Source: Halohasta litchfieldiae (GTDB lineage: Archaea; Halobacteriota; Halobacteria; Halobacteriales; Haloferacaceae). Taken from it: a stretch of 64,000 bases of DNA. Below the pieces are notes generated by a model. It worked only from the letters and a program-made list of their open reading frames with translations. It had not been told where the DNA came from and did not search any database. The position numbers were made by a program, and so were the translations under genes. The stretch lies in the NCBI RefSeq assembly GCF_002788215.1, contig NZ_CP024845.1, positions 682,001-746,000 on the forward strand, read 5' to 3'. Positions within the stretch are counted from its first letter, which is position 1. Each line of letters opens with the position of its first letter. This document shows positions 11,649 to 15,773 of the stretch, piece after piece.

Positions 11649-13559
11649 CTACTCGTCGTCACTGTATTCGGAGAGCTTCTGCTGGAAGCCGACCCAGTGG
11701 GTAAGCTCGCCGGTGTCGTCTCTGACTGGCGCGATATCAAGTTTGTTCCAAAACTGGGTACCATCCTTCCGATAGTTTTGCAGTGTTACCGACACCGGTT
11801 CGTGGCTCTCGATCCCTTGCCGTATCTCGTCGACCGTCTCGGGATCCGACGCCGGACCCTGCATGAACCGACAGTTCCGGCCGAGAATCTCCGCACGGTC
11901 GTAGCCGGTTAGCTCACAAAACTGATCGTTCGCATACACCATCGGATTGTCATCGAGGGTCGGATCGGTGATCGCGATACCGATGGGGGCTTCGTCCATG
12001 GCCTGTGTTTTCATTTCGAGTTCGGCCTCCCGGCGGTTCCGGGCAGTGACATCCCGAGCCACGAAGAGGTGTTGGCCCGGCACGACGTTGGCTGCCCCAG
12101 CGTACTCGACCGCGCGGTCGACACCGTCTGCCCCGTGGATGGTGACTGTATCACGCCGCTCTGTGTCGGTCTGGAACTGTTGCCACTCGCTGTTGAAATC
12201 GAACTCAGCGGGCAGAAACTCTTGGAGTGATCGGCCGAGTAACTGTTTCCTGTCGAGCCCGAACACTGCGGTTGCCCCCGCGTTGGCATCGACGATCCGG
12301 CCCTCGTCATCGGTGATCAACAACGCGTCGGTTGCTTCTTCGAAGGCGGCCTTATACTGGTCGCGGGCCCGCGTGAGTTCGGTGATCCCCGACTCGCTGC
12401 CCGTCTCGGGAAGCCGTGGGATCGAGACCGTCATCGTCGTCCCTTGGTCGGTCACTGTCGTCTCGACGCTGCCGTCGTGGCTGTCGATGATCCAGTGGGT
12501 GAGCCACAGCCCGAGTCCGCTGCCGTGAACAAGCGGCGTCTCCGCGCCCTCTCTGAGAACGGTACGTTCTTGCTCGGAGAGCCCCGGCCCGTCGTCGGCA
12601 ACGTGTATTTCGAGCGCGTTTGGGAGGCTGTCGACGGTCACGGTGACGGTCGGAGCCTCGCCGCAGTGTTTGGCGGCGTTCTCGACGAGTTCCATGATCG
12701 CCCGCTCGAAGTTTGCCAACACCGCCACCGAGATGTCGTCGTCACAGTCGACCGAAATTGACGCGTTGGGATGTGACTGGGTGACTCTCTCGACGACGTA
12801 CTCGATTAGCGCAGCGATATCGGTTGGGTTTCGGTCGGCGGTTTCGCTGATTACCTGCTCCAACTCGCGGGCTTTCTGGCCCAGTCCGATGAGTTTGTCA
12901 ATGTTGCGGAGTGCGGTCTCACCGCTTTGTGTGTCATCCAACTGCTCGGCCATGATCTCAGTGTGTCCCCGAATGACTGCCAGATCGTTCCGAAGGTTGT
13001 GTCGCAGCACGCGGTTGAGCACGGTCGCAAGGTTGGCCTGCCTGGTGAGTTCGGCCTCATGTTGTTTGCGTTCGAGTTCACGTTCGAGCAGTCGAGCAAT
13101 CAGTTCGGTAAACATCGTCTCGCCGTCGCTGAAGGCATCCCGTGGATCGTCAGCGACGAAACAGACCGTGCCATACGGTTCGCCGTCGACAATAAGCGGT
13201 GTGCCGTGATAGCAGTGCAACCCGTGGGTTACGAATGCTGGATCATCAGCCCACCCCTGGTTGGGCGCGTCAGAGAGGGCAATCTGGGCGTTGCTCTCGA
13301 TTGTCCGCCGGCAGTATGTCGTCCCGAGATCAAGCTCTAAGCCCGGTGGGAATTGTCCACTGGCTGGGTCTGTGCTGGCGATGGTTTTCCAGTGATCGGT
13401 TTCTTGATTGATACGGGTTAGATGGCCGTTGTCCGCCCCCAAATACTGTGCGCCAAGCCGCAGTGCGTCCTCGGCTTTCGTCTCGAACGGCGTCTCTCGA
13501 CGAATGATCTCATACAGTTCGTTTCTCGCCTCTTGGGCAGTGTATGTGGTATCAGACAT
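11649..13559 (-). CDS. GAF - histidine kinase - PAS - LOV protein (kinase-first architecture)
   Basis: Predicted cytosolic light- or redox-sensing kinase, 636 residues. Order: GAF domain (about 20-160), phosphoacceptor helix LRHNLRND with His187, ATPase domain with ELVENAAKH (N-box, Asn294), ADDGPG and HGSGLGLWL (to about 385), PAS (395-505), then a terminal PAS (515-630) containing RNCRFMQGP, the signature of photoactive LOV domains (Cys563), plus the flavin-contacting residues in LQNYRKDGTQFWN and WVGFQQ. Sensor domains normally precede the kinase; here two PAS domains follow it. Start 13559 (MSDTTYTAQ) is preferred over an upstream extension. No response regulator is adjacent. The neighbours are a flavoprotein reductase and a second LOV-like protein. 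Confidence 0.9.
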   Translation of the reverse strand: MSDTTYTAQEARNELYEIIRRETPFETKAEDALRLGAQYLGADNGHLTRINQETDHWKTIASTDPASGQFPPGLELDLGTTYCRRTIESNAQIALSDAPNQGWADDPAFVTHGLHCYHGTPLIVDGEPYGTVCFVADDPRDAFSDGETMFTELIARLLERELERKQHEAELTRQANLATVLNRVLRHNLRNDLAVIRGHTEIMAEQLDDTQSGETALRNIDKLIGLGQKARELEQVISETADRNPTDIAALIEYVVERVTQSHPNASISVDCDDDISVAVLANFERAIMELVENAAKHCGEAPTVTVTVDSLPNALEIHVADDGPGLSEQERTVLREGAETPLVHGSGLGLWLTHWIIDSHDGSVETTVTDQGTTMTVSIPRLPETGSESGITELTRARDQYKAAFEEATDALLITDDEGRIVDANAGATAVFGLDRKQLLGRSLQEFLPAEFDFNSEWQQFQTDTERRDTVTIHGADGVDRAVEYAGAANVVPGQHLFVARDVTARNRREAELEMKTQAMDEAPIGIAITDPTLDDNPMVYANDQFCELTGYDRAEILGRNCRFMQGPASDPETVDEIRQGIESHEPVSVTLQNYRKDGTQFWNKLDIAPVRDDTGELTHWVGFQQKLSEYSDDE

Positions 13560-13723
13560 TGTTAGGGGATACGGCCATACAGGGTGCAGGTTCGCTTGGA
13601 AGCAGTTTATTACTATCTTCCTCACAGAAAGTTCTCTGAATGTGATTAGTATGGGCCTGTGTTAACAAATAACTACCTGTTGGAATAAGACTAGTAACCC
13701 AATGAGCGGACCGCTATTTCCAC

Positions 13724-15118
13724 TCAGTAGCTGTACGTTTCTTCAGTAATCTGGACGTAGCCCTGTTTTTTGAGCGACCGTTTTTTCTTTTTATATTTAT
13801 AAAGGGTCTTCGCGCCGGAGAGCCCCGACCGGAGCGTGCTCTTTTTAAGAAGGTTAGAGCCATCCGCCGCGAGCATCCCACGAACTGATTTAAATGTTCG
13901 ATCCCAGTCGCTCGGCCCATAGCCGCGGCAGAGTTCGGCAAAGGTGACGTTGCGGAGTAGTTCGTCACCGATGGCTTCGTCCCATCGGTTGTTGTACGTC
14001 GACAGATCGCCTTTCGCCGCCAACTCGCCAGCAATCGCTCCCGTCCGAACGGCAACGTGGTCGCCGCCCTCGTGGAACGCCGAGGTCGTCCCCATTGCGC
14101 CACCGGCGACCGCGATTCCAGCGTCGACGGGCGACTCGATTGGCTGTGTCGAGGAGATACTGTAAGTTTCGGTACCGTCGCGCTTGCCGCGGTCTTCAAC
14201 CAGTGGGAAGTCGGTCTCGATGTCGTACTCGTCGCCCCACTGCCACTCAAGCAGTCGATGAATGTAGGTGCTCCCCTGTGGGATACTGTCGTCGTCTGGC
14301 CGAAGGAGTTCGTACTCGTCTCGGTCGTCGACGGCATCGATGTCGAGCCCGATTGGCATCGTCAACCCAACCCGGCAGACCCGCGCGTCGTTCGGGAACA
14401 CCCACGGATAGGCCGTATGGCCGGGCATCACGCCCCACCAGAATTTGATCGACGTCTTGAGTTCCTCGAAGACCTCCTCGGGGAACCGTCGGTACTCCTG
14501 ATAGGCGATATGGTTGGCTTTCGGCGAGGCCAGTAGTTCCGAGGCCTTGGTGTCGTCGGGGAGATAGCTATCGAGCACTCGGTTAGTAACCGTACGCTGT
14601 GGGCCATCCGCGAGAATTAGGAAATCAGCCCCGATTTCCTCGCCGTTGGCCAGCGAGACGACGTGCCGCGGATCGTCCGCGGAGCCGTCTGCATCGAGGT
14701 CGCTGTCGACCTCGGTTACGCGAACCTTGAGCCGGTACTCCGCGCCGGCGTCCTCGGCGCGCTCGCGCATCCAGTCGTCGAACCGAGCGCGATTGAAGGT
14801 GTAGCCGAAATGGTCGTACGACGATTCGATACCGGTACTTCTCAGCGTGCAGGATTCCGTGGGGCCAATGAACTCCGCGCGGTCGAGGTGTTGGAGGAGG
14901 ACATCGTCGGGGAACTCATCCGGATGAATATCCATGATGTCGACCCAGTAGTCGAGAATGCCCGCCGCGTCGGTCGAATCGGGACCGAGTCCCTCGCGGT
15001 CGGCCCGCGGGACGCCCTTCTCACAGACGACCGCCGAGGCACCACCGCTGGCCGCGGCATGTGCCGCCGCCGTGCCCGCGGGGCCACCACCTACGATAGC
15101 CACGTCTACGCGTTCCAT
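13724..15118 (-). CDS. Geranylgeranyl reductase family FAD-dependent oxidoreductase
   Basis: A 464-residue flavoprotein. The N-terminal Rossmann motif VDVAIVGGGPAGTAAAHAAA binds FAD, followed by YTFNRARFDDWMRERAEDAG and a second FAD segment VAGGAMGTTSAFHEGGDHVA preceded by PVDAGI. The family saturates geranylgeranyl chains of archaeal lipids or of quinone/retinoid side chains. Several paralogues exist per haloarchaeal genome, so the substrate is not certain. A basic tail (KYKKKKRSLKKQG) may aid membrane association. It is divergent from the Cys-less LOV gene (127 bp between starts) and lies downstream of no obvious operon partner on its strand. Confidence 0.88.
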   Translation of the reverse strand: MERVDVAIVGGGPAGTAAAHAAASGGASAVVCEKGVPRADREGLGPDSTDAAGILDYWVDIMDIHPDEFPDDVLLQHLDRAEFIGPTESCTLRSTGIESSYDHFGYTFNRARFDDWMRERAEDAGAEYRLKVRVTEVDSDLDADGSADDPRHVVSLANGEEIGADFLILADGPQRTVTNRVLDSYLPDDTKASELLASPKANHIAYQEYRRFPEEVFEELKTSIKFWWGVMPGHTAYPWVFPNDARVCRVGLTMPIGLDIDAVDDRDEYELLRPDDDSIPQGSTYIHRLLEWQWGDEYDIETDFPLVEDRGKRDGTETYSISSTQPIESPVDAGIAVAGGAMGTTSAFHEGGDHVAVRTGAIAGELAAKGDLSTYNNRWDEAIGDELLRNVTFAELCRGYGPSDWDRTFKSVRGMLAADGSNLLKKSTLRSGLSGAKTLYKYKKKKRSLKKQGYVQITEETYSY

Positions 15119-15245: not shown

Positions 15246-15773
15246 ATGTCCGTCGACGCCGATCTCAAACGGATTTTTCAGGCCCAAACCAAGTCGGATG
15301 GCCCTCTCATTCCCTCGATGGCCGTGTTGGAACAGCTCGCCGACACGCTCGGTGAGATTCGTGCGAGTGCCAACCCCGATAGCTACAGGACCGATGCGGA
15401 GTCGACGCTTGACTGGAACACGCCCGCGATGGACACCGCGCCGATCGGGATGGCGATTTCGGGGCCAGCCTACGAGGACAACCCAATCGCGTACGTCAAC
15501 GATCAGTTCGAGGGGATCACGGGCTACACGGAGGTCGACCTGATCGGCGAGAACCTACGACTCCTTCAGGGACCGGAGACGGCCAGCGACCCGGTCGACG
15601 ACCTCCGGGAAGCCCTCGACATCTGGGCTCCGGTAATTGTCGAACTCCGGAACTACCGCAACGACGGCACCAAGTTCTGGAACCGCCTCGCGCTGGCTCC
15701 GATTGTCGACGTAACCGGGACGGTCAGCAATTGGGTCGGCTTTCAAGAGGATATCACCGACAGGCGGTCATAG
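15246..15773 (+). CDS. Stand-alone LOV-like PAS protein lacking the photoactive cysteine
   Basis: A 175-residue protein with a helical N-terminal cap (1-58) and one PAS domain (60-172). It closely resembles the terminal LOV domain of the kinase at 11649: APIGMAISGPAYEDNPIAYV, GENLRLLQGPE, LRNYRNDGTKFWNRLALAP and NWVGFQEDIT. The Asn, Arg and Gln residues expected to hold flavin remain, but the adduct-forming cysteine of NCRFLQ is Leu104 (ENLRLLQ). It may bind flavin without forming the classical adduct, acting as a redox sensor, a semiquinone-type photosensor or a partner of the kinase. No output domain is visible. Confidence 0.82.
   Translation: MSVDADLKRIFQAQTKSDGPLIPSMAVLEQLADTLGEIRASANPDSYRTDAESTLDWNTPAMDTAPIGMAISGPAYEDNPIAYVNDQFEGITGYTEVDLIGENLRLLQGPETASDPVDDLREALDIWAPVIVELRNYRNDGTKFWNRLALAPIVDVTGTVSNWVGFQEDITDRRS

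Follow-up and report, generated by a model that had tools for sequence, protein, structure and literature searches.

LOV histidine kinases, which include Brucella LOV-HK, YF1 and the haloarchaeal LOV-HKs, have an N-terminal LOV domain that feeds the DHp helix through the Jα helix (PMC6798134). LOV receptors with the effector in front are already known. In aureochromes, an N-terminal effector is followed by a C-terminal LOV domain that forms a light-driven dimer, and this "rare domain topology" is opposite to that of most LOV proteins (PMC4721966). NmPAL (PAS-ANTAR-LOV) is a prokaryotic LOV receptor with a non-standard domain order. Its LOV domain is located at the C-terminal position. In the dark, this domain inhibits the RNA-binding ANTAR effector (PMC9614035). 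Haloarchaea also contain BAT-type LOV regulators, LOV-GAF-BAT-HTH_10 DNA-binding proteins, some of which have no adduct cysteine. A kinase-then-LOV order is not described in the accessible portions of open-licence papers on archaeal LOV proteins (PMC4844311, PMC12202551, PMC4682037); large LOV surveys may list it.

P0001 is a GAF–histidine kinase–PAS–LOV protein of the salt-loving archaeon Halohasta litchfieldiae. Its gene is located at positions 11649..13559 on the minus strand of the window (the whole stretch of 64,000 nucleotides that was analysed) and encodes 636 aa, as defined by the open reading frame and its translation, Pfam/NCBIfam matches and an alignment with 44 homologues. The earlier note had not mentioned that the gene is on this strand. 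The reading frame itself opens farther upstream, with a GTG at 13625, and the ATG start was adopted on the evidence of the full-length-aligned homologues, which begin at or near the same ATG. An annotation artefact or a frameshift fusion was ruled out, because other genomes hold the identical full-length architecture.

The kinase half occupies the N-terminal part of the protein, and all the features of P0001 given here are on the minus strand. The GAF domain (res. 27–161, 13077..13481) was identified by Pfam PF01590 (5.5e-10) and by the helix/strand pattern of the structure model. It is followed by the DHp/HisKA helix (res. 182–224, 12888..13016), whose HisKA match (4e-4, 20.7 bits) is below the Pfam cut-off of 26.9 bits; the H-box RHNLRND is nonetheless clear. 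The candidate phospho-acceptor is His187 (codon 12999-13001), and R186, H187, N188 and N191 of the H-box are invariant in the alignment of 45 sequences. The catalytic ATPase domain (res. 244–382, 12414..12830; HATPase_c 2.7e-16 over residues 284–382) contains the N-box ELVENAAKH, the G1 box DDGPGL and the G2 box GSGLGLWL, in which E290, N294, H298, D322, G324, G326, G346, G348 and G350 are invariant across the same 45 sequences. Thus, P0001 has both the H-box histidine and the N, G1 and G2 boxes that define a histidine kinase, and its kinase boxes are intact as judged from the sequence. None of the neighbouring genes examined was recognised as encoding a response regulator.

Two PAS matches follow the kinase in Pfam, at about residues 401–508 and 520–627. 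The first one (PAS domain 1, res. 402–503, 12051..12356) matches PAS_4 and PAS_8 and is not a LOV domain. The terminal one (res. 515–630, 11670..12017) matches NCBIfam YtvA_fam over residues 518–633 with 148.5 bits (2e-43). This falls short of the equivalog cut-off of 250 that applies to the whole protein, which is to be expected when only a single domain is matched. Its best PDB matches are the YtvA LOV domain and YF1 (4gcz and 2mwg, 1e-35 to 1e-43; 5e-43 for 4gcz, the YtvA LOV-FixL fusion YF1), and its model superimposes on the solved LOV domain 9vf7 with an rmsd of 0.7 Å at 53% identity (Foldseek). The motifs RNCRFMQGP, LQNYRKDGTQFWN and WVGFQQ, which the earlier note had read from the translation, are all present. 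The first of them contains GRNCRFMQ, a GXNCRFLQ-type motif, with the candidate adduct-forming Cys563 (codon 11871-11873). The putative flavin site consists of N562, C563, R564, Q567, N595, N605, W622 and Q626, and therefore includes the flavin-contacting Arg, Gln and two Asn as well as the N5 Gln. The cysteine is conserved in 14/14 kinase-first LOV domains and in 74/80 sampled haloarchaeal LOV domains of other genomes. By sequence and model, the terminal domain of P0001 is an unmistakable LOV domain and its light-sensing site looks fully intact. Photoactivity is likely by analogy, because the canonical haloarchaeal LOV domain ALovD-1 keeps its photocycle up to 3 M monovalent salt (PMC12202551).

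Two positions of the LOV domain differ from the usual pattern. Met566 (codon 11862-11864) stands in for the Leu of NCRFLQ; the 80 loci sampled from other genomes all lack a Met here, but 6/14 kinase-first LOV domains have one, and it could tune the flavin redox properties or the photocycle. Trp622 occupies the position at which most characterised LOV domains carry Phe (PMC12202551).

In P0001, the LOV domain (res. 515–630) comes after the kinase (res. 182–382), so that the output domain is N-terminal to the sensor and the canonical LOV-HK architecture is not found. By sequence, the LOV site and the kinase chemistry are the same as in the LOV histidine kinases, with YF1 as the top PDB match and Brucella LOV-HK among the fold matches. 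In contrast to their N-terminal LOV domain with a Jα helix, the LOV domain of P0001 is located behind the ATPase domain and has no Jα helix. The aureochromes share the layout of effector first and LOV last, in which the output must exit the LOV domain on its N-terminal side, and their solved LOV domains are 46–50% identical to that of P0001 in the aligned stretch. However, their effector is a DNA-binding bZIP, without a kinase, GAF or extra PAS domain, and the likeness is one of layout only. NmPAL, a match in the fold search (6hmj), is likewise a prokaryotic receptor of non-standard order, but its effector is the RNA-binding ANTAR domain and it has no kinase. The BAT-type regulators are found in the same organisms and have related LOV domains, but they differ in architecture. 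The haloarchaeal GAF-HK-PAS kinases without LOV have the same core and stop after the first PAS domain.

To place this order among LOV proteins, the LOV domain was searched in 117 haloarchaeal genomes, of which 87 gave a match. Eighty loci of other genomes were sampled, comprising the 40 best-scoring matches and about every second or third beyond them, and the LOV-bearing frames were sorted by a HATPase profile. The kinase was located after the LOV domain in 45 proteins and before it in one (G063), which is a homologue of P0001, and 34 proteins had no kinase. Ten of these 34 were checked and all ten were LOV-BAT-HTH_10 regulators. The sample is tilted toward relatives of the query LOV domain and should thus favour, not hide, kinase-first cases. 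The claim of the earlier note, that a GAF-kinase core ahead of both PAS domains is the reverse of most LOV kinases, therefore stands, with the domain order agreeing in Pfam and only 1/46 sampled LOV kinases outside the H. litchfieldiae genome being kinase-first. Two of the checks that it proposed, a domain search and a structure prediction, also bore out the C-terminal LOV domain (Pfam/NCBIfam and AlphaFold2/Foldseek).

A different result was obtained within the family of P0001. Relatives of the GAF-HK core were found in 26/392 haloarchaeal genomes (about 7%) at E <= 1e-140 in a whole-protein search, and none was found outside the same order in the phylum-wide sample. When P0001 was scanned against nucleotide contigs, a single contig matched and it was unrelated; viral sequences gave no match, and plasmid records gave no place covering 80% of the query. 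Among 45 usable family members, 14 from 12 genomes have a cysteine-intact LOV domain behind the kinase; in 10 of them LOV adjoins the first PAS domain, and in 4 it lies farther along a multi-PAS tail. Seven other members end after one PAS domain, 19 have other tails and 5 are tailless. All of the 8 scanned LOV-tailed homologues have HATPase and then PAS matches in Pfam, and 7 of them have GAF or GAF_2. The H. litchfieldiae genome also encodes a paralogue, L002, which is 58% identical to P0001 over residues 4–513 and has PAS domain 1 as its sole tail domain. Because 14 of 45 members share it, the kinase-first order is a recurrent variant and not an oddity. The earlier note would have been refuted by homologues in which this order is routine, and this holds by half: the order is rare among LOV kinases at large but recurs among the homologues of P0001. 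As judged from these sequences, the reversed order is real, rare overall, and recurrent within one small archaeal kinase family.

The LOV domain is under purifying selection in every pair tested, and in most pairs its constraint is about as strong as that of the kinase. Between P0001 and G063, for example, the LOV domain and the kinase core are 62% and 67% identical, with nonsynonymous divergences of 0.25 and 0.24, respectively. In a tree of the 45 cores, the presence of LOV requires seven changes. A tree of 98 LOV domains, which was built from a short alignment and has many open forks, places all 14 kinase-first LOV domains on one side of a branch with an SH-aLRT of 84. As they form one group, the LOV domain probably entered the family once, and this single recruitment followed by losses and exchanges is the simplest history. 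G364 and G168a have cores that are 87% identical and LOV domains that are 61% identical, whereas G364 and G417b have LOV domains that are 71% identical and cores that are 66% identical. This one case (G364) suggests that LOV tails were swapped between family members. The loci L018, L168 and L189 (G168/G364/G417) are those at which the LOV and kinase-core similarities disagree. Another homologue, L169 (G305), has an in-frame TGA within its LOV tail, which is due either to natural truncation or to an error in the assembly.

On one flank of the P0001 gene are a plus-strand cofD and a gene run ending in ribosomal protein S17e. On the other flank are a geranylgeranyl-reductase-like FAD oxidoreductase (13724-15118, minus strand), which scores below the family cut-offs, and divergent from it the gene of an effector-less short LOV protein, P0002 (175 aa, 15246-15773, plus strand), in which the adduct cysteine is replaced by Leu (GENLRLLQG). 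The two genes adjoin in 8/9 genomes examined and are a candidate flavin redox/light-regulated pair. All 9 orthologues found, from two genera, share this Leu, so P0002 is a conserved adduct-null LOV protein and not a decayed one; its structure model is poor (pLDDT 43.5). The H. litchfieldiae genome has six LOV domains at E<=1e-25, L158, L159, L160 and L161 among them. The adduct cysteine is found in two of the six, the window kinase and L161, and the other four have Pro, His, Pro and Leu. The kinase is located between S17e and the reductase both here and in G417, which belongs to another genus; six further genomes have the same order of genes without the kinase in this gap. The kinase was either ancestral in the gap and then lost, or inserted twice. 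The same six genomes exclude an obligate unit of kinase, oxidoreductase and short LOV protein, and the neighbours of P0001 do not define its function, because the occupancy of the gap varies among genomes.

The AlphaFold2 model of P0001 (45 sequences) has a mean pLDDT of 80.7, with about 87–93 in the LOV domain, and a pTM of 0.39, so that the single domains are trustworthy and their placement is unreliable. The stretch between the ATPase domain and PAS domain 1 (res. 385–401, 12357..12407) is predicted to be a flexible linker with pLDDT below 50. Its sequence is variable among tailed relatives, and the distance from P381 to A404 is 24 residues in 31/40 tailed homologues and 23–30 in the others. 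The connection between PAS domain 1 and LOV is a helix in the model (A'α, res. 505–522, 11994..12047, by DSSP), and the stretch of residues 503–527 is 25 long in all of the 10 homologues in which LOV directly follows PAS. This fixed length fits a rigid helical coupling through A'α, as far as sequence and model can tell. The C-terminus is only about 8 residues past the last LOV strand. P0001 thus has no C-terminal Jα effector helix, and a change in the LOV domain must leave via the N-terminal A'α.

From these features we infer that P0001 is probably a soluble, cytoplasmic blue-light histidine kinase with an effector-then-sensor layout, in which the LOV tail controls its own kinase, and it can reasonably be supposed that light acts from the C-terminus. 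Blue light would excite a bound flavin, most likely FMN, in the LOV domain and form a flavin-Cys563 adduct. Protonation of N5 would then reorient Gln626 and shift the LOV β-sheet. The signal would exit toward the N-terminus through A'α to the first PAS domain, and continue over the flexible linker behind the ATPase domain to the kinase. The probable means is an altered pairing of the two PAS-LOV tails in a homodimer, which would change the access of the ATPase domain to His187 and thereby the kinase output. The N-terminal GAF domain would provide another input, separate from LOV, from the side of the DHp.

Tight coupling in cis is not evident, because the ATPase-PAS linker is predicted to be disordered. 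The LOV tail may instead sense light but serve for docking or heterodimerisation, for instance by recruiting a PAS/LOV partner or a response regulator, while GAF drives the kinase. This is unlikely. The disordered linker and the absence or replacement of the LOV tail in most relatives speak for it, as does a second LOV protein, P0002, at a distance of one gene both here and in G417; against it, the linker length is identical in most tailed relatives, and the genes of P0002 and the kinase usually lie apart or are not found in the same genome. A bolder form of cis control is rather doubtful. Here the kinase would be worked from two ends, with the LOV tail acting on the tethered ATPase domain or through tail-tail pairing and GAF acting on the DHp from the other side, by a route unlike that of known LOV kinases; at the window locus, the neighbouring cysteine-less P0002 could pair with the tail and blend redox and light signals. 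It is quite improbable that the LOV domain is chiefly a redox or oxygen sensor that works by flavin reduction and in which light is of secondary importance, a role that has been proposed for the cysteine-less BAT-LOV. Signalling via the semiquinone is possible for LOV domains without the cysteine, and BAT-LOV shows a response to reduction (PMC4682037); four cysteine-less LOV domains exist in the same genome, and Trp622 is at the usual Phe position. However, every kinase-first LOV domain keeps the cysteine, for which a sensor of redox alone would have no need. A decaying or accidental fusion without function is very improbable, since the stop in L169 and the plasticity of the tails are set against retained flavin residues, purifying selection on LOV in every tested pair and recurrence in 12 genomes.

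Control of the kinase by its own LOV tail thus remains the preferred reading, and the interest of P0001 resides in the coupling mechanism between tail and kinase. Models of LOV-kinase signalling assume a sensor that feeds the DHp from the N-terminal side, so this family asks how else a sensor controls a kinase. A kinase of this type is evidently able to work without LOV, because its relatives freely drop the tail or exchange it for another. With its sensor located behind the ATPase domain and with close paralogues that either carry or lack LOV, this natural family allows a clean comparison of how kinases can be controlled, and it is also a possible salt-tolerant optogenetic scaffold.
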